The notes under the pieces: generated by a model
Seen by the model: the letters and a program-made list of their open reading frames with translations, nothing else
Told to the model about the DNA's origin: nothing
Databases searched by the model: none
Shown: in pieces, positions 3,446-23,203 of the stretch
Layout: each line of letters opens with the position of its first letter
Position numbering within the stretch: position 1 is the first letter of the stretch
DNA from: Minisyncoccota bacterium
GTDB taxonomy: Bacteria > Patescibacteriota > Microgenomatia > UBA1400 > PJMF01
Reading direction: 5' to 3'
Assembly: GCA_018646985.1 (NCBI GenBank)
Contig: JABGTR010000005.1
Span: 1 to 33,870 of the forward strand
Length of the DNA stretch: 33,870 nucleotides
Made by a program: the position numbers and the translations under genes

Positions 3446-3606
3446 ATCAATCGTGAATTGATTATACAGCCAAGGGCGAATTTACGCAGCTTGGGTTAGG
3501 GAAGAGTCCGAGCTGATAATTTTTATCTTTTCCCAGACCTATGGGGTCAAAACAACGTCATTTCAACACCTTTTTGAGTTAAAATTGCCTACTTTTTACC
3601 CTCTTT

Positions 3607-3638
3607 TTGACACCCCACCCCTGAAACTAAGTTATAAT
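3607..3638 (+). promoter_or_regulatory. Promoter of the tsaC-tsaE fusion (leaderless)
   Basis: A perfect TATAAT (3633-3638) ends 6 nt before the ATG at 3645, so transcription should begin at or next to the start codon. A TTGACA is present at 3607-3612, but its 20-bp spacing is longer than ideal. The arrangement excludes the upstream in-frame start at 3585 and fixes the ATG at 3645. Confidence 0.65.
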
Positions 3639-3644
3639 AGTCAC

Positions 3645-4688
3645 ATGGAGATCTTAAATACAGCTACTACAAAAAAAAATATAGTCAAAGCAACGGTCGA
3701 AGTTCTCAGAAATGGTGGTTTAGTTATCTTCCCCACCGAGACTGTTTATGGGGCTGGGGTAGATGCGACCAATCAAACTGCAGTGGACAAACTTTTAGCC
3801 TACAAATCCCGCCGAGAGGGTAAGCCCCTATCAATTGCCGTCCCAGATCAAAAAGCAGCCGCCGAATATGTGAATATTAATGAGCAAGCTCAAAAACTTT
3901 ATCAACGCTTTCTCCCTGGACCAGTAACAGTAGTTTCTAAAAGTTTGAGAAAAGTTGCTAGAGGAGTCGAATCTGAGTTTGGAACTCTGGGGGTCAGAAT
4001 CCCAGATCACAAACTAATGCTGCAGATTTTAAAAGAATTTGGCAAACCAATTACCGCCACTTCTGCCAACGCTTCTGGTAAAAAAAGACCCTACAAAATC
4101 CAAGATATTTTTGACAATTTATCAACCAAGCAGAAAAACTTAATTGATCTAGTTCTAGATGCAGGTGAACTACCTAGAAATGATCCTTCTACAGTCATCG
4201 ATACCACTTTTTCTACTCCGACTACTCTGCGATCGGGAAAGATTAAAAATCTTACAGGGAAAAGATTGACTTCTAAGTCTGAAGCAGAGACCAAGAAGAT
4301 TGCCAGCACCCTAATACTCAAACATTGGGATCAAATCAGGGAAAAAGGCCTAGTGATCGGCTTAGACGGAGTGTTGGGAGCTGGTAAAACTATTTTTGCT
4401 AAAGGTGTGGCTGAGTTTCTACAAATTTCAGAAGCAGTTACTTCACCCACATACTCATATATAGAAGAATATGACTATGAACGACACAGCGTAAAGGGCA
4501 AACTTTACCACATTGACCTCTGGAAAATTGAGGCCGAAGAAGAATTGAAAAGATTAGAAATAGAAAAATTAATTGCTCCTAACAATGTCATCGTCATCGA
4601 GTGGTACCAACAGGGAAAAACAATCAACACAGATTTGAAGATATTAATTGAAGAAGAAGATGGTGAAGTAAGAAAGATTGCAATTTAA
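3645..4688 (+). CDS. TsaC-TsaE fusion: threonylcarbamoyl-AMP synthase and t6A ATPase
   Basis: Two t6A37 enzymes in one 347-residue chain. Residues about 5-200 are a YrdC/TsaC domain, which makes threonylcarbamoyl-AMP from Thr, bicarbonate and ATP. It carries FPTETVYGAG, the substrate-site KSRREGKPLS and TATSANASG. Residues about 215-347 are a TsaE/YjeE P-loop ATPase with Walker A GVLGAGKT (242-249), TSPTYSYIEEY, LYHIDLWKI and VIEW. TsaE normally acts with TsaB and TsaD to complete t6A. tsaD lies 1.9 kb downstream; no tsaB is seen in the window. The frame is uninterrupted across the join, so the fusion is real in this sequence. The start is fixed by the leaderless promoter. Confidence 0.93.
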   Translation: MEILNTATTKKNIVKATVEVLRNGGLVIFPTETVYGAGVDATNQTAVDKLLAYKSRREGKPLSIAVPDQKAAAEYVNINEQAQKLYQRFLPGPVTVVSKSLRKVARGVESEFGTLGVRIPDHKLMLQILKEFGKPITATSANASGKKRPYKIQDIFDNLSTKQKNLIDLVLDAGELPRNDPSTVIDTTFSTPTTLRSGKIKNLTGKRLTSKSEAETKKIASTLILKHWDQIREKGLVIGLDGVLGAGKTIFAKGVAEFLQISEAVTSPTYSYIEEYDYERHSVKGKLYHIDLWKIEAEEELKRLEIEKLIAPNNVIVIEWYQQGKTINTDLKILIEEEDGEVRKIAI

Positions 4689-12835: not shown

Positions 12836-15322
12836 ATGTCTAGTAAAAAATGGAAACAAGCGCAAAAGAAAAAAATCTTAAAAAAAGAGAGTCGCCCTCT
12901 TAAATCAAAAACTAAGAAAAAAACACCACTCCGTCTTTCTCGATCAACTAAAATTAAAAAGAAAATTAATTTTATTTTATCTGGAGTAAAGGGAAAAACT
13001 AAAAAGAAATTTAGCAAACCAACTCAAAAAAGAATTGTCAGAACTATTAAGTTTTTATTATTACCAGTTACTCACCCAGTTTTAAAATATGTAACCGCAG
13101 TAGTTGTTTCATTATTAATTGTTGGAATCGGAGTCTTGCTCCAACAACTACCATCTCCTCGCCGCTTAACCTCAAAAGATAACTTTGCCGTCAGCACTCT
13201 CATTTATGATCGTCATGGAGAACTGCTTTATGAGATTTTTGATGAAGAGAATCGTGTTCCCATAAAACTCGAAGATCTTCCTCCTCAAATTATCCAAGCT
13301 ACCATTGCTATCGAAGATAAAAATTTCTATCACCACTGGGGTTTTGATCTGATTGGAATTATCAGAGCAGTCCGCAACAATTTAACTAAATCTAGTACTG
13401 AAGGTGGCTCTACCATCACTCAACAACTAGTAAAAAATGCTTTCTTATCTAAAGAAAAAACTCTTACTAGAAAAGCCAAAGAATTGGTCTTATCAATCTT
13501 GACTGAAGTGATGTATTCAAAAGATGAAATCCTAGAGATGTATCTTAATTACATCTCATATGGTGGCACAGCCGTCGGTATCCAAGCTGGTTCCCAAAAA
13601 TATTTTGATAAAGACGCAGCCGACCTAAATTTAGCTGAGGCTTCATTGCTGGCTGGATTACCACAAGCACCTAGTCGCTACTCTCCATTTTCTTCTGACC
13701 CTAGTGTCTCTAAAAAAAGACAAGAAGAAGTTTTGCGACGGATGACAGAAGAGAACTTCATAACTCAGCTCCAAGCAGAAGAAGCAACTGCCCAAACCCT
13801 GGAACTAGCATTATCTAGAACAGATATCCAAGCACCTCACTTTGTGTTTTATGTCCGCGACTTACTTTATGAAGAGTATGGAGCTGAAAAAGTCGAAAAG
13901 GGTGGTTTGAGAGTTTATACTACCTTAGATCTAGAACTTCAAAAAACAGCTCAAGCTTCTGTCTCTGCTGAAGTCGGAAAATTATCTCGTCATCGAGTCA
14001 GTAATGGAGCAGCTCTAGTTACCAAGCCAAATACTGGTGAAATTTTAGCAATGGTAGGTAGTAAAGATTATTTTGATAACGAGATTGATGGGCAAGTTAA
14101 CATCACTCTTAGCCATCGTCAACCAGGCTCTTCAATCAAGCCTTTAATGTATGCCACCACCTTTCAAGAAAAAAAACTCAATCCCGGCAGCATTTTACTA
14201 GATATTCCGACTTGTTTTGAGATACCAGGACAGCCTCAATATTGCCCTAAAAATTATGATGGCTCTTTCAAAGGACCAGTTACTATTCGCCGCTCCTTAG
14301 GCAACTCACTTAACATCCCTGCTGTTAAAGCCATCAACACCATAGGAGTAGAAACATTTATGAATCAAGCTACAAAAATGGGTATCACCACTTGGAAAGA
14401 TCCAGCTAACTATGGCCTCTCCCTAACCCTCGGTGGTGGTGAAGTTAAAATGATTGACATGGCCCAAGCTTTTGGAGTTTTAGCCAACCAAGGTGTAAAA
14501 GTGCCACTCTCACCAATTACAAAAATCGAAGATTACACTGGAGAAGTATTCATGGAGAATAATTTTGAACAACGTCTTGAATACTTGCAGGATTTGACGG
14601 AATTTGATCAAGATAAAAAAGGTGATCTAAAGAGAGTTATGGACCGAGCTCCAGCCTATTTAACTAGCCACATTATGCAAGACAATGCGGCTCGAGTCGA
14701 AGCTTTTGGGTCACGCTCAGAGCTAGTTATTCCCGGACAAATCGTCAGTGCTAAAACTGGTACTACCAACGATATCAAAGACAACTGGACAATCGGTTTT
14801 ACTCCAGAGTACCTAGTAACTACTTGGGTGGGAAACAATGACAATACGCCAATGAATCCCTACTTAGTGTCAGGCGTAACCGGTGCTGCTCCGATTTGGA
14901 ATGACATCATGAGCTTTATTCTTGAAGGACAAGAATCTGTCTGGCCAGAAAAACCAACTGATGTATCTCAAGGCATGGTTTGTGCAAGTGGAATGACCCC
15001 AGAAAAATCTGAAACTAACTGCAGACCACTCAATCAAGAACTCTTCTGGAAAAATAGCCGCCCTTCACAGTCTCAAATCATTGAAAAAGAAATCTGGATT
15101 AAACCAGAGACAGGTTTGCCACCAACTTATGGTGAACAAGCTGAAGGACTAGTTTTAGAAAGACGTACTCTCTATCAAGATCCAGTGACCAAACTTTACT
15201 GTGCTGACTGCAATCGCCCAGTAAGCGAAGATGGGAAAATTCAGTACGAGAAACAAACTGTTAAATACAATTCTAATGATAATTCCGAAACCTTCTTCAA
15301 TGAATTCTTTAATGAAAACTAA
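12836..15322 (+). CDS. Class A penicillin-binding protein (PBP1A-like)
   Basis: Bifunctional murein synthase of 828 residues. A long lysine-rich cytoplasmic tail (1-68) precedes one membrane helix (VTAVVVSLLIVGIGVLL, about 82-98). The glycosyltransferase (GT51) has EDKNFYHHWG and GGSTITQQLVKNAFLSKEKT. The transpeptidase has the serine motif SSIK in RQPGSSIKPLMYAT, SLN in SLGNSLNIPAVKA, and KTG in SAKTGTTND. A C-terminal extension carries cysteines, including LYCADCNRPV. The GH18 gene overlaps its end, and a paralogue follows at 16566. It uses lipid II, which MurJ (31581) would export. Confidence 0.96.
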   Translation: MSSKKWKQAQKKKILKKESRPLKSKTKKKTPLRLSRSTKIKKKINFILSGVKGKTKKKFSKPTQKRIVRTIKFLLLPVTHPVLKYVTAVVVSLLIVGIGVLLQQLPSPRRLTSKDNFAVSTLIYDRHGELLYEIFDEENRVPIKLEDLPPQIIQATIAIEDKNFYHHWGFDLIGIIRAVRNNLTKSSTEGGSTITQQLVKNAFLSKEKTLTRKAKELVLSILTEVMYSKDEILEMYLNYISYGGTAVGIQAGSQKYFDKDAADLNLAEASLLAGLPQAPSRYSPFSSDPSVSKKRQEEVLRRMTEENFITQLQAEEATAQTLELALSRTDIQAPHFVFYVRDLLYEEYGAEKVEKGGLRVYTTLDLELQKTAQASVSAEVGKLSRHRVSNGAALVTKPNTGEILAMVGSKDYFDNEIDGQVNITLSHRQPGSSIKPLMYATTFQEKKLNPGSILLDIPTCFEIPGQPQYCPKNYDGSFKGPVTIRRSLGNSLNIPAVKAINTIGVETFMNQATKMGITTWKDPANYGLSLTLGGGEVKMIDMAQAFGVLANQGVKVPLSPITKIEDYTGEVFMENNFEQRLEYLQDLTEFDQDKKGDLKRVMDRAPAYLTSHIMQDNAARVEAFGSRSELVIPGQIVSAKTGTTNDIKDNWTIGFTPEYLVTTWVGNNDNTPMNPYLVSGVTGAAPIWNDIMSFILEGQESVWPEKPTDVSQGMVCASGMTPEKSETNCRPLNQELFWKNSRPSQSQIIEKEIWIKPETGLPPTYGEQAEGLVLERRTLYQDPVTKLYCADCNRPVSEDGKIQYEKQTVKYNSNDNSETFFNEFFNEN

Positions 15323-16565: not shown

Positions 16566-18965
16566 ATGAGGAAAAAGGATCCTATAGCTTCTAAAAATAG
16601 AACATATTTATTCATCAAAAATACTTTTAAACTAAGACTTGTCAGGTCTTTGTATTTCGCATACTTCTTTAATGAATTGAAGAAACCAGGCTTGATAAGC
16701 CTAAATAAGGCTAGAAAAAGTGCTCTCAAACAGAAGTATTTATTTAAAAAAATTGGTCAAATTTATTTGTGGATGAATCCAATTTCAAAAAAAATTGAAA
16801 AGAAGTTGGTTCATAAAAAAAGTAAAAAAACTACCAACTCACTGCTACTGGGCTGGTCAATCACTAACCTGTTTCCCTTTGAATTAAAGCTACCAAAGAT
16901 TTCTCTGGAAATCCCCAAAATAGCAATTAAATTACCAAAAATTAAGATATCTGCATCAGTTCGCTCAATAGTAATTGGCCTCATTGCGGTTACTATTTTT
17001 GGTGCCGGCTACAACACTTATCTATTCATTTTTAAAGACCTGCCAAAAACAAGTCAGCTTATTCAAGATGACCAGATTGTAACCACCAGAATACTATCTC
17101 GCGACAGCGAAGTCTTATTCAAAATTTATGAGGATGAAAACAGAACACTGGTTAAACTAAGTGACATTCCACAGCACTTGATCGATGCCACTATTGCTAC
17201 TGAAGATAAAAATTTCTACTATCACCGTGGCTTTTCTATCCAAGGAATAATTAGAGCTGCCATCGCCAATAGACAAGACAATAGCATTCAACAAGGTGGC
17301 TCTACCATTACTCAACAACTAGTTAAAAACCGTTTATTGAGTCGTGAGCGAACTATCCAGCGCAAACTTCGAGAGCTCGTCCTTTCCATCTCAGTTGAAA
17401 TCAAATTTAGCAAAGACGATATTTTAGAAATGTACTTTAACCAAGTCCCATATGGTGGCTCTGCCTATGGTGTAGAAGAGGCGGCTCAAAGATACTTTGG
17501 TAAAAACGTGACTCAGCTTAACCTTGCAGAGAGTACCATGTTGGCTGGATTACCAGCTGCCCCTTCTGTTTACTCCCCATTCGCTGTCCCTGAGCTGGCT
17601 AAACGACGCCAAAAAGAGGTCTTACAGAGAATGGTGGATGATGAATACTTAGACCAAACTCAGGCTGATGCAGCTTACAACCAATCGTTAAACTTTCAGC
17701 ACGATAGCATCGATATCATCGCCCCTCACTTTGTGTTTTATATTAAGCAACTACTCGCACAGCAATATGGTGAAGCCGCCATTAATCAAGGTGGCCTAGA
17801 AGTCACTACCACTTTAAACCTAGAGCTTCAGCAAGCTGCGCAGAAAATAGTCACCGATGAAGTCAACAAACTAAAACCACTCCGAGTAAATAATGGGGCA
17901 GCTTTAGTTACAAATCCAAAAACTGGTGAAATTTTAGCAATGGTAGGCAGCAAAGATTATTTTGACTTTGAACACGATGGTCAAGTTAATGTAACCCTTA
18001 GATCCCGTCAACCCGGCTCATCAATCAAACCACTTACTTATGCAATTGCCCTAGAGAATGGAAAATCTCCCAGCTCCATCATTAATGACAGCCCAATTAC
18101 CTACCGATCTCCAGGGAGCCCCCCTTATAGCCCTAAAAACTATGATGGTAAATTTCATGGCAAAGTTACTCTAAGAGAATCATTGGCTTCCTCTTACAAC
18201 GTGCCTGCTGTCAAAACTTTAGCCGAGATTGGAGTTAGTAACATGCTTGATAAAGCTGAGTTAATGGGAATTGATACCTGGCAAGACCGAAGTCGCTTTG
18301 GACTTTCACTTACCTTGGGCGGAGGAGAAGTTAAAATGACTGATATGGCTGAACTTTACAGTTCATTTGCTAATCAAGGAAAAACAACTTCATTAAATCC
18401 TATTTTAGAAATAAAAAATTATAAAGGCGAAATCTTATATAGAAATACTTGTGTTTTAGACAATAAGGGTTGTCCACAGAACAAAACACTCAGTCCTAAA
18501 GTTGCTTATCAAATTTCAGATATTTTATCTGACAATCAAGCACGAACCCCAGCCTTTGGACCTCGTTCTGTCCTACATATCCCCAATCAACAAGTGGCTG
18601 TCAAAACTGGAACAACCAATAACCTCAGAGATAACTGGACAATTGGTTATACGACAGATTATCTAACGGCTGTTTGGGTTGGAAATAATGATAACTTACC
18701 TATGAGCTATGTCGCCTCTGGTATAACTGGAGCTTCTCCAATCTGGAATAACATTATGCGTCTATTACTTGATGAAGATAATCCTCACACGTTCCCAACT
18801 CCAGCTGGTTTAATCAAAGTAAAAATTTGCGCAACTACTGGTACATTACCTTGCGCAAAATGCCCTGTCATCAAAGAAGAATTATTTGTTCCTGGCACAG
18901 AACCACAGAAAGCATGCTCTCCAAATTGGTTCAACAAAAAAGAAACTAATGATGAGAAAAAATAA
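16566..18965 (+). CDS. Class A penicillin-binding protein, paralogue of the gene at 12836
   Basis: A 799-residue bifunctional murein synthase. The long N-terminal cytoplasmic region contains a LPKI repeat-like stretch, then a membrane helix (SIVIGLIAVTIFGAGYNTYL, about 138-157). GT51 has EDKNFYYHRG and GGSTITQQLVKNRLLSRERT. The transpeptidase has SSIK in RQPGSSIKPLTYA, SYN in ASSYNVPAVK, and KTG in VKTGTTNNLRDN. The C-terminal tail has a CxxC (CAKCP) and further cysteines. It is clearly homologous to the first PBP, down to short stretches of near-identical DNA, but the cytoplasmic tails differ. It converges on the cytidylate kinase gene with a gap of 7 nt. Confidence 0.96.
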   Translation: MRKKDPIASKNRTYLFIKNTFKLRLVRSLYFAYFFNELKKPGLISLNKARKSALKQKYLFKKIGQIYLWMNPISKKIEKKLVHKKSKKTTNSLLLGWSITNLFPFELKLPKISLEIPKIAIKLPKIKISASVRSIVIGLIAVTIFGAGYNTYLFIFKDLPKTSQLIQDDQIVTTRILSRDSEVLFKIYEDENRTLVKLSDIPQHLIDATIATEDKNFYYHRGFSIQGIIRAAIANRQDNSIQQGGSTITQQLVKNRLLSRERTIQRKLRELVLSISVEIKFSKDDILEMYFNQVPYGGSAYGVEEAAQRYFGKNVTQLNLAESTMLAGLPAAPSVYSPFAVPELAKRRQKEVLQRMVDDEYLDQTQADAAYNQSLNFQHDSIDIIAPHFVFYIKQLLAQQYGEAAINQGGLEVTTTLNLELQQAAQKIVTDEVNKLKPLRVNNGAALVTNPKTGEILAMVGSKDYFDFEHDGQVNVTLRSRQPGSSIKPLTYAIALENGKSPSSIINDSPITYRSPGSPPYSPKNYDGKFHGKVTLRESLASSYNVPAVKTLAEIGVSNMLDKAELMGIDTWQDRSRFGLSLTLGGGEVKMTDMAELYSSFANQGKTTSLNPILEIKNYKGEILYRNTCVLDNKGCPQNKTLSPKVAYQISDILSDNQARTPAFGPRSVLHIPNQQVAVKTGTTNNLRDNWTIGYTTDYLTAVWVGNNDNLPMSYVASGITGASPIWNNIMRLLLDEDNPHTFPTPAGLIKVKICATTGTLPCAKCPVIKEELFVPGTEPQKACSPNWFNKKETNDEKK

Positions 18966-18972
18966 TTTCTAA

Positions 18973-19668
18973 CTAGAGCTTGATTTCTTTAATTGCTCTG
19001 ACCTGAGCCTCAATCATATTAACTGCTTGGTTAATAGTCAGATCACTAGTATCAACTACCATCGCCTCATCTACCTTTTTTAAAGGATCAACGCTCCTCT
19101 CAGTATCAATTTTATCTCTTTTGAGAAGCTCTTGATAAGTATCTTCAAAACTTAAATCTTTACCTCGAGACTGCATCTGCATATGTCTTCTCTTGGCTCT
19201 AATCACGTCTGAAGCTGTCATAAATATTTTTAAATCAGCGTCTGGTAAAACTTTATAAGTAATATCTCTACCCTCCATCACCACATCGTCATGGGCTGCT
19301 ATTTGTTGTTGTTTTTCTACCAATACTTCTCTTAACTTGCGATGCTTTGCTACCACTGGTGTATTCCTACTAATTTCATCAGTTCTAATCTGCCAAGAAG
19401 TATCTTCTCCATTTAACAAAATAGTGATTAAACGCCCATCTTTTTCTCCTATTGTAGGCTTACGTAACTCAATTTTAGATTTTCTAACTAGTTCAACCAA
19501 TTGAACTTCATCTTCTAGATTAATATTATTTCTCATCGCTAATAAAGCTGCGGTGCGATACATAGCACCAGTATCGATGTATAAAAATCCCAACCTTTCT
19601 GCAACAAGTCTCGCCACAGTGCTACAGCCGGCAGCAACAGGACCATCGATTGCAATTTGGAATGACAT
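18973..19668 (-). CDS. Cytidylate kinase paralogue with altered P-loop
   Basis: A 231-residue protein of the bacterial Cmk family (phosphorylates CMP/dCMP). The P-loop reads GPVAAGCST, with Cys15 replacing the lysine that normally contacts ATP phosphates. The CMP-side DTGAMYR and EGRDI are kept, and the LID motif RDKIDTERSVDPL is canonical. EGRDIT replaces the usual EGRDxG. It lies immediately downstream of a second Cmk whose P-loop is intact. It is possibly inactive, regulatory or changed in specificity. The ATG at 19668 follows the preceding stop by 1 nt, with AGGAG just upstream. The frame is intact, so this is not an obvious pseudogene. Confidence 0.85.
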   Translation of the reverse strand: MSFQIAIDGPVAAGCSTVARLVAERLGFLYIDTGAMYRTAALLAMRNNINLEDEVQLVELVRKSKIELRKPTIGEKDGRLITILLNGEDTSWQIRTDEISRNTPVVAKHRKLREVLVEKQQQIAAHDDVVMEGRDITYKVLPDADLKIFMTASDVIRAKRRHMQMQSRGKDLSFEDTYQELLKRDKIDTERSVDPLKKVDEAMVVDTSDLTINQAVNMIEAQVRAIKEIKL

Positions 19669-19669
19669 A

Positions 19670-20347
19670 CTAAGAGATCTCCTCTACTTTTTTTACTATT
19701 GTATCAATTACTTCTTCAATACTCATATGAGTTGTATCTAGTTGCCACGCATCCAGGGTTGGTCTGAGTGGATCTACTTCTCTAGTCATCTCCCTAGTAT
19801 CTCGTGAAACTAAATCTGCTTGGACTTGTTTCCTAGTCAGCTTTTCACCAACTTTCGTGAGATATTTTCGCTTACGCTTCACGCGCACATCTTGATCAGC
19901 AATCATGAAAATCTTGAGATCTGCATGAGGCAATACTTTACTACCAATATCCCTCCCTTCCATGACCACATCATTACCATTACACATCTCTTGCTGAAGT
20001 TTAACTAAGATTTTTCTAACTTCTGGATGAGTTCCAACCACAGAAGCACCTTCTCCCATCTCTGATTCTCTTATTTTCCAAGAAATATCTTCATTATCTA
20101 GATAAACTGACACTGGGCGCCCATCATTCTTCTTACCAATCGGCCGAGCTAAGCGAATCTTTATTTTTTGAGCCAACTTTTCCATTGCTTGAGCATTATC
20201 CCAATCCATATCTGCTCTGAGAGCAGCTAGGGCTAGGGCTCGATACATAGCGCCAGTATCAACGTAAGTCATGCCTAAACGGCTGGAGATAATTTTTGCA
20301 ATGGTACTTTTGCCGGCGGCAACAGGGCCATCAATTGCAATCTGCAC
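19670..20347 (-). CDS. cmk: Cytidylate kinase (CMP/dCMP kinase)
   Basis: Phosphorylates CMP and dCMP with ATP in pyrimidine nucleotide supply. The 225-residue length is standard. It has P-loop GPVAAGKST with K13, DTGAMYRALALAAL, VVMEGRDIGSKVLP and the terminal DAWQLDTTHMSIEEV. The LID reads RDTREMTREVDPL, where the canonical second Asp (RDxxD) is Glu. The GTG start at 20347 directly abuts the stop of the upstream small membrane gene, so translation is probably coupled. It is the likelier active member of the tandem pair. Confidence 0.93.
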   Translation of the reverse strand: MQIAIDGPVAAGKSTIAKIISSRLGMTYVDTGAMYRALALAALRADMDWDNAQAMEKLAQKIKIRLARPIGKKNDGRPVSVYLDNEDISWKIRESEMGEGASVVGTHPEVRKILVKLQQEMCNGNDVVMEGRDIGSKVLPHADLKIFMIADQDVRVKRKRKYLTKVGEKLTRKQVQADLVSRDTREMTREVDPLRPTLDAWQLDTTHMSIEEVIDTIVKKVEEIS

Positions 20348-21133: not shown

Positions 21134-22168
21134 CTAACTCTCTTTTAATACATAATAAGTAGCTCTTCCTTTTCCCTGACGCTCTATTAAGGACAGATTA
21201 ATCATCTTCTGAAAATCTAAAGCCCTAGTAGCTTTGGCTCTATCAGTTAGAGTCGCATAATCACGGTCAGCAATGAAACCATGTTTCTGGATATGTTTTA
21301 ATATCGACTGGTGATATTTTTTTAACTTAGTTTGAGGAGATCTATTGAAATCTGGCAAAAGATGACCGACTCGCAACAACTCATCAATGATACCGTCGGT
21401 GAAATACTCAAGCCATAAAGTAAAATCTATCTCATCAGCCAGTTCGTTATAATCACCAAACTCACCCACCTTTTCAAAATACTGAGTGACATTTTGATTA
21501 TAATAATTTTCAAAACTAAAAAGATTAAACGTGTTTAGTCCCATTTGTGCTAATAAGGCCTTGGTAACCAGGCGAGTAGTACGCCCATTTCCATCCATGA
21601 AAGGATGAATTATCACCATCTGTTTATGAAAAAGACCAGCTAAAATAAAGGGATCAATTCTACCTTGGCTTTGCTTAATAAAATTAATAAGCATTGGCAC
21701 TAGTTTCTGAACTTCATTTACATCTGGAGGCAAATAAACTACTTCGCCAGAGCGAGGATTATTGACCACCACTGGTTTCTGACGTAATTTTCCTGACTCA
21801 AAATCAGGTAACAAACCCGTAGTAACTTGCTGATGAATTGATAAAACTAGTTTTAACGAAACTTGAGGATTTTTAGTTTTAAGATGTTTATCTAAATCCA
21901 CTAGCGCTTGATTGTAGTTAATAACCTCTTGCTCACTATTTCGTAGATTCATTGGTTTTGATTTTAAAACTTTTTTTACTTCAGTTAGTGGCAAGGGATT
22001 ACCTTCAATACTAGTGGACGCAAATGTGGAAACAGCTCGAGCTGATTTTTCCAACTCCATTAGAATTACTCTAGAAAAACGACGTTGATTAAGTTCTTGA
22101 ACTAAAACAGCAAGCCGCTTGATATTAGCCAACAATTTGCTGGTAATTGTATAGTTTGGAGAAAACAT
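21134..22168 (-). CDS. Fic-family protein (Fic/DOC AMP-transferase type)
   Basis: A 344-residue protein of the family that transfers AMP or a similar group to target proteins. The catalytic motif HPFMDGNGRTTR (188-199) is complete. The flap region SGEVVYLPPDV precedes it. An N-terminal inhibitory motif of the [ST]xxxE[GN] type is present (S51-E55-G56 in STSIEGN), making it a self-inhibited class II Fic. A C-terminal winged-helix-like segment (about 280-344) may bind DNA. No separate antitoxin is needed or seen. The promoter contains three phased repeats, suggesting tight and perhaps self control. smpB lies downstream. Confidence 0.93.
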   Translation of the reverse strand: MFSPNYTITSKLLANIKRLAVLVQELNQRRFSRVILMELEKSARAVSTFASTSIEGNPLPLTEVKKVLKSKPMNLRNSEQEVINYNQALVDLDKHLKTKNPQVSLKLVLSIHQQVTTGLLPDFESGKLRQKPVVVNNPRSGEVVYLPPDVNEVQKLVPMLINFIKQSQGRIDPFILAGLFHKQMVIIHPFMDGNGRTTRLVTKALLAQMGLNTFNLFSFENYYNQNVTQYFEKVGEFGDYNELADEIDFTLWLEYFTDGIIDELLRVGHLLPDFNRSPQTKLKKYHQSILKHIQKHGFIADRDYATLTDRAKATRALDFQKMINLSLIERQGKGRATYYVLKES

Positions 22169-22222: not shown

Positions 22223-23116
22223 CTATTTTTCCCGCAGCTTGCTGATCACTTCACCAGCCTTTATATTCATTTTTGAAAATGCAAACCACTTCTTACCTAA
22301 ATCTTTTAGTGAAGCGCCAAGGTGATAAATATCTTTTTGATCAATAATCAGAAACCGGTCGTGAGCTTGAGAAAATAATTTAATATCAATGAGATCATAC
22401 TGACTATTAAACTTTTTAAGATCTAATTCCAAATCTTTAGTGATGTTTTTTGTATATATGGTGACACTTACTCCCTTGCTTCGTTTAGAAAAAAGCTGGA
22501 GAACACTCTCGTCAACATAATTATCAAGTAAGATAATAGATTTTTGTGCTTTTTTTATTAAATTAGAAATAAATAGATGAGCATCAAACATTTGTCCATT
22601 ATAAAAAATACCTTGCTTAGGAGTTAAACTTTTATCTTCCAAAGCACTCAGTATCTTTTCTAGTTTTTTACTAGAAACATTTTTAAAGTCTTCTAGTCTT
22701 TCTAATCTTGAGAAAACTTGCTCATTTAAAATGATAAACCGCCTCATTTTTACAAAACTGTTGATTATTTTAGTACTCATCTCTATAGCAGTTTTACTTC
22801 TCAAAACAGCGGACAACATCGAGACACCTTGTTCTGTAAATGCAAATGGCAGGTACTTTCTATGTTGTCCCACTCTTGTTTCTAAGGTCACAAATTGTGA
22901 CCTTAAAGATACCCACTCTTCTCTTGATAAGAGAAACATAAATTCTGCTGGAAAACGCCTATCATTTCTTTTTACAGCTTGGTTTAAAGCCTTTGTCTTA
23001 ACACCATATAACCCTGCTAAATCAGCATCCAACATCACCTGCATACCTCTAATTGAGTAAATTTTACTTTGAATATTATCTGTTATTACCAATTTTTGGG
23101 CTTTATTTTCAGTCAC
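22223..23116 (-). CDS. ORF6N-domain protein with PLD-like C-terminal domain
   Basis: A 297-residue protein. Residues about 10-100 are an ORF6N (phage KilA-N-associated) DNA-binding domain: MLDADLAGLYGV, RRFPAEFMF, LRSQFVTLE and FAFTEQGVSML. The C-terminal part (about 165-290) resembles a phospholipase-D-like fold with HDRFLIID (252-259), an HxRxxxxD variant of the HxKxxxxD motif. Such proteins occur in mobile and accessory gene sets, and their function is unclear. Start is a GTG at 23116 with no Shine-Dalgarno. A palindrome upstream (23189-23203) is repeated inside the gene, pointing to possible autoregulation. Confidence 0.88.
   Translation of the reverse strand: MTENKAQKLVITDNIQSKIYSIRGMQVMLDADLAGLYGVKTKALNQAVKRNDRRFPAEFMFLLSREEWVSLRSQFVTLETRVGQHRKYLPFAFTEQGVSMLSAVLRSKTAIEMSTKIINSFVKMRRFIILNEQVFSRLERLEDFKNVSSKKLEKILSALEDKSLTPKQGIFYNGQMFDAHLFISNLIKKAQKSIILLDNYVDESVLQLFSKRSKGVSVTIYTKNITKDLELDLKKFNSQYDLIDIKLFSQAHDRFLIIDQKDIYHLGASLKDLGKKWFAFSKMNIKAGEVISKLREK
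22884..22904. promoter_or_regulatory. Intragenic palindrome in the ORF6N gene
   Basis: A 21-bp inverted repeat, perfect apart from the central base, with arms AAGGTCACAA and TTGTGACCTT. It encodes part of the ORF6N core LRSQFVTL. The 13-bp centre TCACAAATTGTGA is identical to the one upstream of the gene. Confidence 0.7.
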
Positions 23117-23188
23117 TAGACAAGTAAAACATTCAATGCCTACCAGAAGTGTAACAAAAGTAAGATTGGTCTTTATTTAAAACTTAAG

Positions 23189-23203
23189 ATCACAAATTGT
23201 GAT
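23189..23203. promoter_or_regulatory. Palindrome upstream of the ORF6N gene (candidate operator)
   Basis: ATCACAAATTGTGAT, palindromic about its central A, lies 73-87 nt upstream of the GTG start and shares 13 bp with the intragenic copy. A further perfect palindrome CTTAATTAAG is at 23211-23220. No clear -35/-10 pair could be assigned. Confidence 0.6.

Follow-up and report, generated by a model that had tools for sequence, protein, structure and literature searches.

The window, by which we mean the whole stretch of 33,870 nucleotides analyzed here, contains an ORF6N-domain gene with a palindrome in its coding sequence and a second copy of that palindrome upstream. The features on which the argument rests are listed below; bases of the palindrome are numbered outward from its centre (k1, k2 and so on).

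22223 to 23116, minus strand: ORF6N-domain gene of 297 aa, GTG start as listed, with an N-terminal helix-turn-helix (HTH) and a C-terminal PLD-like domain
22883 to 22905, no strand assigned: internal 23-bp palindrome TAAGGTCACAAATTGTGACCTTA, coding for L71 to L78; proposed target of the encoded protein, with covarying arms in homologues
22967 to 22996, minus strand: codons of the predicted recognition helix, residues 41 to 50 (TKALNQAVKR), from the AlphaFold helix and mutual-information peaks at 42, 43 and 46
22979 to 22981, minus strand: codon of Q46, partner of k4 and k5 (Q with TCAC); TCAC in 95/101 Q genes, TCGC in 32/40 E genes
22988 to 22990, minus strand: codon of A43, partner of k4, from mutual information and base counts
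22991 to 22993, minus strand: codon of K42, partner of k7 (K with G); G at k7 in 120/120 K42 genes
23189 to 23203, no strand assigned: upstream copy ATCACAAATTGTGAT, 20.5 bits, in the interval that separates the DnaJ-like and ORF6N genes; its centre precedes the GTG start by 80 bp

Directly downstream of the ORF6N gene lies a Fic-domain gene (21134-22168), and Fic genes likewise adjoin RhuM or ORF6N genes on Bacteroides plasmids. The window also codes for two neighbouring genes resembling penicillin-binding proteins of one kind (12836-15322 and 16566-18965), a pair of adjacent cytidylate-kinase-like genes (18973-19668 and 19670-20347) that appear to be a tandem duplication, and a single ORF resembling a TsaC/Sua5 and TsaE fusion (3585-4688).

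Residues 17-104 of the window protein match the Pfam ORF6N profile PF10543 with an E value of 4.5e-33 and a score of 113.8 bits against a gathering score of 27.8, which places the protein in this family. An AlphaFold model (mean pLDDT 81.7), computed from an alignment of 42 sequences from which four rows from plasmid records were left out, predicts an HTH at residues 30-50, consisting of a helix at 30-37 followed by the recognition helix at 41-50. Residues 42, 43 and 46 sit on one face of this second HTH helix, and the palindrome-coded residues 71-78 are modelled as the end of a helix and a low-confidence loop. Fold comparison of the C-terminal half points to a PLD-like fold, the top matches being TrmB-family regulators, FAM83 and NucT; this likeness, with TrmB among the top matches, suits a role as a regulator, and the predicted domain may also have a nuclease role. 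RhuM proteins on Bacteroides plasmids have this C-terminal domain in common with the window protein. Searches of the PDB recovered no sequence relative of the ORF6N domain, E. coli genomes yielded no match to the two homologues searched, and no sigma-70 type promoter was found between 22900 and 23400 of the window.

The two copies of the palindrome are exact over TCACAAATTGTGA, which occurs in the gene at 22888-22900 and upstream at 23190-23202, 302 bp apart; the 881,232-base genome contains no further exact copy. The preliminary description had already recognized both copies, although it began the upstream one at 23191 and gave the internal inverted repeat a length of 21 bp; the latter in fact spans 23 bp, with two perfect 11-bp arms around one centre base and TCACAAATTGTGA as its core. 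Its reading of the peptide holds, as the repeat codes on the minus strand for L71-R-S-Q-F-V-T-L78. The repeat common to the two places extends over 18 nt, one of them mismatched. Scored with a weight matrix derived from 138 homologous internal sites, the internal site reaches 38.7 bits and the upstream site the value listed, with the rest of the window at or below 8 bits throughout; as 1.0 Mb of shuffled window peaked at 14.9 bits, with nothing at 20 or above, neither copy can plausibly be put down to chance. Symmetry in the upstream copy covers no more than 15 bp (8 of 13 pairs).

We then collected ORF6N genes from relatives, Patescibacteria, many phyla in the genome collection, archaea and viral contigs. 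A palindrome was present at the matching place in all 166 genes of the larger set, which spans bacteria, archaea and viruses and was selected for a clear site in the domain; it is mostly 21 to 41 bp long and lies about 75-100 bp past the recognition-helix codons. Some ORF6N genes lack a clear palindrome (e.g. L012). In the divergent phage-like ORF6N gene of L034 (genome G423) a weaker palindrome, TAACTATACGAATTTCGTTGAGTTA, occupies the analogous region, and six loci (L005, L016, L028, L033, L055 and L094) carry two to three in-frame tandem palindromes inside the ORF6N domain, 27-60 bp apart and with different arms.

The arms of these palindromes covary well beyond the expectation from column composition. 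Across the 150 genes used for pairing percentages, they pair at k4 in 95% (42% expected), at k5 in 95% (69%), at k10 in 100% (52%) and at k11 in 96% (70%), with the signal fading past k14, and in the full set k10 is paired in every one of the 166 genes (about 52% expected). On the left arm, k10 mostly falls on the third position of leucine codons, with TTG standing opposite C in 77/77 genes and TTA opposite T in 41/41; likewise, the serine codon goes with the opposite arm, as TCA with GTG (94 genes) or TCG with GCG (35 genes). A tree computed after removal of the palindrome columns requires at least 37 changes at k4 and at least 19 at k10. As the arms covary even at synonymous positions, with repeated changes on the tree, the DNA and not the peptide alone is under constraint.

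Arms could also be kept alike without selection if replication switched templates at the quasipalindrome, and a homogenizing effect of this process on inverted-repeat arms is described in an earlier study (PMC8604942). However, mismatches are concentrated at k7 and k8 (25 and 19 of 166 genes) as against four at k9 and none at k10 (Fisher 4e-10), and those at k7 last within clades while k4 changes on both arms. Since this process would, moreover, leave the relationship with the recognition helix described below unexplained, we regard it as extremely unlikely. The long and often perfect stems might instead suggest a hairpin in the mRNA, but G:T pairs number 21 against 33 A:C over k4-k13 and are absent at k4, k5 and k10, such that the tolerance of G:U expected in the stem of a structured RNA is not seen; with no Rfam match in eight loci either, an RNA hairpin is equally hard to credit.

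The base identities in the palindrome follow the amino acids of the predicted recognition helix. Upon comparing palindrome bases with the aligned proteins (window numbering), mutual information peaks for k4 at residues 46 (z 80) and 43 (z 32), for k5 at residue 46 (z 34) and for k7 at residue 42 (z 27); the residue adjoining 46 reaches 0.31 bit with k4, and nearly all remaining columns stay below 0.2 bit. The resulting code for residues 43 and 46 reads A or V plus Q with TCAC, R plus E with TCGC, and N plus K with TTCC, the last core being found in 5/6 genes with K at position 46, alongside the counts for Q and E listed above. These two residues predict k5k4 in 156/166 genes, as compared to a maximum of 113 in 2000 shuffles, leaving about 6% of ORF6N genes that break the code. 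The shuffles keep relatedness, for which there are three controls: the restriction of the signal to a single face of the helix, the repeated changes across the tree and the frame test described next; a test of independent pairs on well supported branches had only 6 pairs, which fell 5 to 0 (p 0.06). The upstream copy in the window obeys this code at k4 and k5, and has A rather than G at k7; it may be an operator.

A correlation of this kind might also arise within the protein, were the helix residues to contact the peptide coded by the palindrome, and the right arm does code for V, A or G at a position that goes with Q, E or R in the helix. Yet the left arm follows via synonymous codons, and four ORF6N genes that carry the palindrome in another reading frame, coding for a different peptide, all obey the ORF6N code (4/4). 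In the RhuM family, genes of one frame predict those of the other in 11/11 cases with a known key, three further genes having unseen keys. As the frame-shifted palindromes keep the code despite coding for a different peptide, the correlation runs between protein and DNA; we accordingly rejected the peptide-helix contact, which the frame test contradicts and which we consider highly implausible.

The same organization, with palindromes and codes of their own that are distinct from those of ORF6N, was recovered in the RhuM and Bro-N families. A palindrome is present in 113/121 RhuM genes, nearly always just 3' of the recognition-helix codons, and in the 112 genes used its arms pair at k3 and k4 in 100% (37-38% expected). 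Two residues of the helix go together with a triplet: A with K goes with TCC, V with K or R with GCA, T with E with CGG, T with Y with CGA, and N with L or Q mostly with AAG or GAG; this predicts the triplet in 104/112 genes, the shuffle maximum being 60. In Bro-N, 45 of the 52 genes examined, three of which belong to the window's own genome, contain a palindrome with 98-100% pairing at k3-k5 and a code visible by eye, e.g. PRKYW with TCCGA and PRRYW with TACGA. Given these codes in three families and the obedience of other-frame palindromes to the same code, we propose that each protein very probably recognizes the palindrome inside its own gene. The suggestion in the preliminary description that the protein recognizes the DNA coding for its own core is hence strongly supported by the covariation of bases with helix residues in ORF6N, RhuM and Bro-N. 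The search of homologues that it called for located the palindrome at the same codon position in the 166 ORF6N genes but an upstream copy in only a minority of them. It had further held that homologues with other codons at this site and no upstream copy would tell against recognition; such codons do occur, but as a different palindrome matching the helix of its own protein, which makes this a misleading test.

Copies flanking the gene behave differently from the internal site. They were found upstream in 39/161 ORF6N genes and downstream in 10/153, near the gene ends. Their base agrees with that of the internal site only at chance level for k4 (21/45, 20.6 expected), more often than expected for k8 (27/38 against 18.1) and weakly for k10; in genes with E46 the k4 of flanking copies is more often A than G, and the core of flanking copies often fails to match the protein. 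Among 60 RhuM genes none had a matching upstream copy with the same core. Based on the minority of genes with an upstream copy, the chance agreement at k4 and the RhuM result, the looped autoregulatory pair about 300 bp apart that had been envisaged for this locus is not a general design, and the conserved matching second operator of a two-operator looping repressor is not found. The disagreement between flanking and internal copies spoke against sequence-specific binding, and is outweighed by the helix code. Flanking copies are also gained and lost: L101 has three within about 120 bp past the stop codon and L109 has none, while at the syntenic and 95% identical loci L090 and L094 the upstream palindromes, some 310 bp ahead of the internal site, are wholly unlike each other, L094 having a second upstream palindrome with a spacer where L090 has one different copy.

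This turnover, along with the tandem in-frame copies in L005, L016, L028 and L033, might be taken as the mark of a mobile palindrome, comparable to Rickettsia palindromic elements or REP sequences, with insertions both within these genes and beside them. Against this, genomes contain at most five copies by pattern searches, nearly all at ORF6N genes, the codon position is single and fixed across phyla, and a bystander would not track helix residues. The dispersal through unrelated genes and intergenic regions typical of such elements is not seen, save in some viral contigs without ORF6N, and we deem this explanation very improbable. Together with the RNA hairpin and mutational upkeep of the arms, it was rejected as a poor fit in view of the missing G:U preference, the few copies and the helix code. 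The viral contigs in question number 21 (L193-L221); they have no detected ORF6N gene and contain exact ORF6N-type palindromes (e.g. L208:6499-6523 and L194:3114-3138), some inside other genes, such as a 412-aa ORF in L208, L210 and L212, and some beside a terminator-like T-run. A further ORF6N-type palindrome (L181:1501-1525) immediately precedes a RhuM gene that has a different core in its internal palindrome; the genome concerned (G228) yielded no ORF6N gene.

A less easily dismissed possibility is that the protein does recognize the palindrome, but for the sake of other copies of the gene, serving immunity or exclusion among mobile elements or the control of one paralogue by another, with specificities diversifying as a consequence. 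The existence of 14 different four-base cores among RhuM genes and of several in ORF6N, the frequency of foreign cores in flanking copies and the location of genes on plasmids and viral contigs are all in keeping with this, as is the sharing of a common core by only 3 of 30 pairs of same-genome paralogues (6.5 expected). However, the paralogue effect is small and its significance is not established, we know of no exclusion phenotype, and such a role is compatible with self-regulation; we therefore consider it unlikely.

We favor, as the probable explanation, that the ORF6N gene contains the palindromic site of its own protein, which would be read by a symmetric dimer and would limit its own expression. 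That the palindrome is preserved as DNA, with half-sites kept identical and bases that follow the recognition helix, is strongly indicated by these sequence patterns, and a symmetric dimer of the encoded protein on the palindrome of its own gene is very likely. With respect to what characterizes an intragenic autoregulatory operator, the palindrome lies inside the coding sequence of the putative regulator, and covariation with the helix suggests specificity for the encoded protein. We infer self-regulation through the internal site to be its likeliest use. In the cell, the encoded dimer would bind the palindrome within its own coding sequence and block RNA polymerase inside the gene, thereby limiting its own expression; where an upstream copy exists, as in the window, it could form a second block near the promoter. 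Helix and target could change together and, as an intragenic site travels with its gene, self-control would be available behind any promoter after horizontal transfer. More tentatively, and at somewhat less than even likelihood, we suggest a class of self-addressed genes, in which the sequence coding for a DNA-binding domain of the KilA-N-like superfamily doubles as its cognate site, such that a protein's specificity would be passed on together with its target as a single cassette and the code of thousands of uncharacterized proteins could be read from their own genes.

The palindrome varies together with the amino acids by which it would be read, and the target should thus be readable straight from the gene in several microbial DNA-binding families. 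If the target is spelled out in each gene, nature would supply hundreds of protein-DNA pairs at once for learning and testing a recognition code, and it would become possible to test what part ORF6N, RhuM and Bro-N genes play in mobile elements. The coding sequence would be under a strong and measurable double constraint, with the choice among synonymous codons dictated by how the encoded protein recognizes DNA.

Among known systems, the TrmB-family archaeal regulators, the top fold matches, resemble the window protein in combining an N-terminal DNA-binding domain with a C-terminal PLD-like domain; full-length matches have a high rmsd (16-20), implying a common architecture rather than one fold, and we claim no membership. 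The Rickettsia palindromic elements and PARCELs (PMC2996958) are comparable in being palindromic DNA kept in frame within coding sequences. PARCELs, however, are tandem repeats coding for amphipathic segments in tracts of variable number (PMC2996958), whereas ORF6N genes mostly have one site at one position, with bases that follow the gene's own recognition helix. The KilA-N-like ORF6N, Bro-N and RhuM proteins of phages, plasmids and bacteria offer a further comparison, the window protein having a PF10543 domain; the difference is that we propose a target on the basis of the gene sequence. In the open-access papers searched we found neither a description of the DNA targets of ORF6N, RhuM or Bro-N nor a paper on palindromes in their genes. 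Intragenic operators are known from lacO2 in lacZ and the second operator of purR, the latter bound by its own product. The proposed ORF6N site resembles them in being a coding-sequence palindrome bound, as we propose from sequence, by a dimeric regulator; it differs in its position, which is fixed across phyla in three families and falls within the very codons of the DNA-binding domain, and in coevolving with the helix. Single intragenic operators are hence already known, and the self-matching palindromes have a fair chance of being a class of their own.
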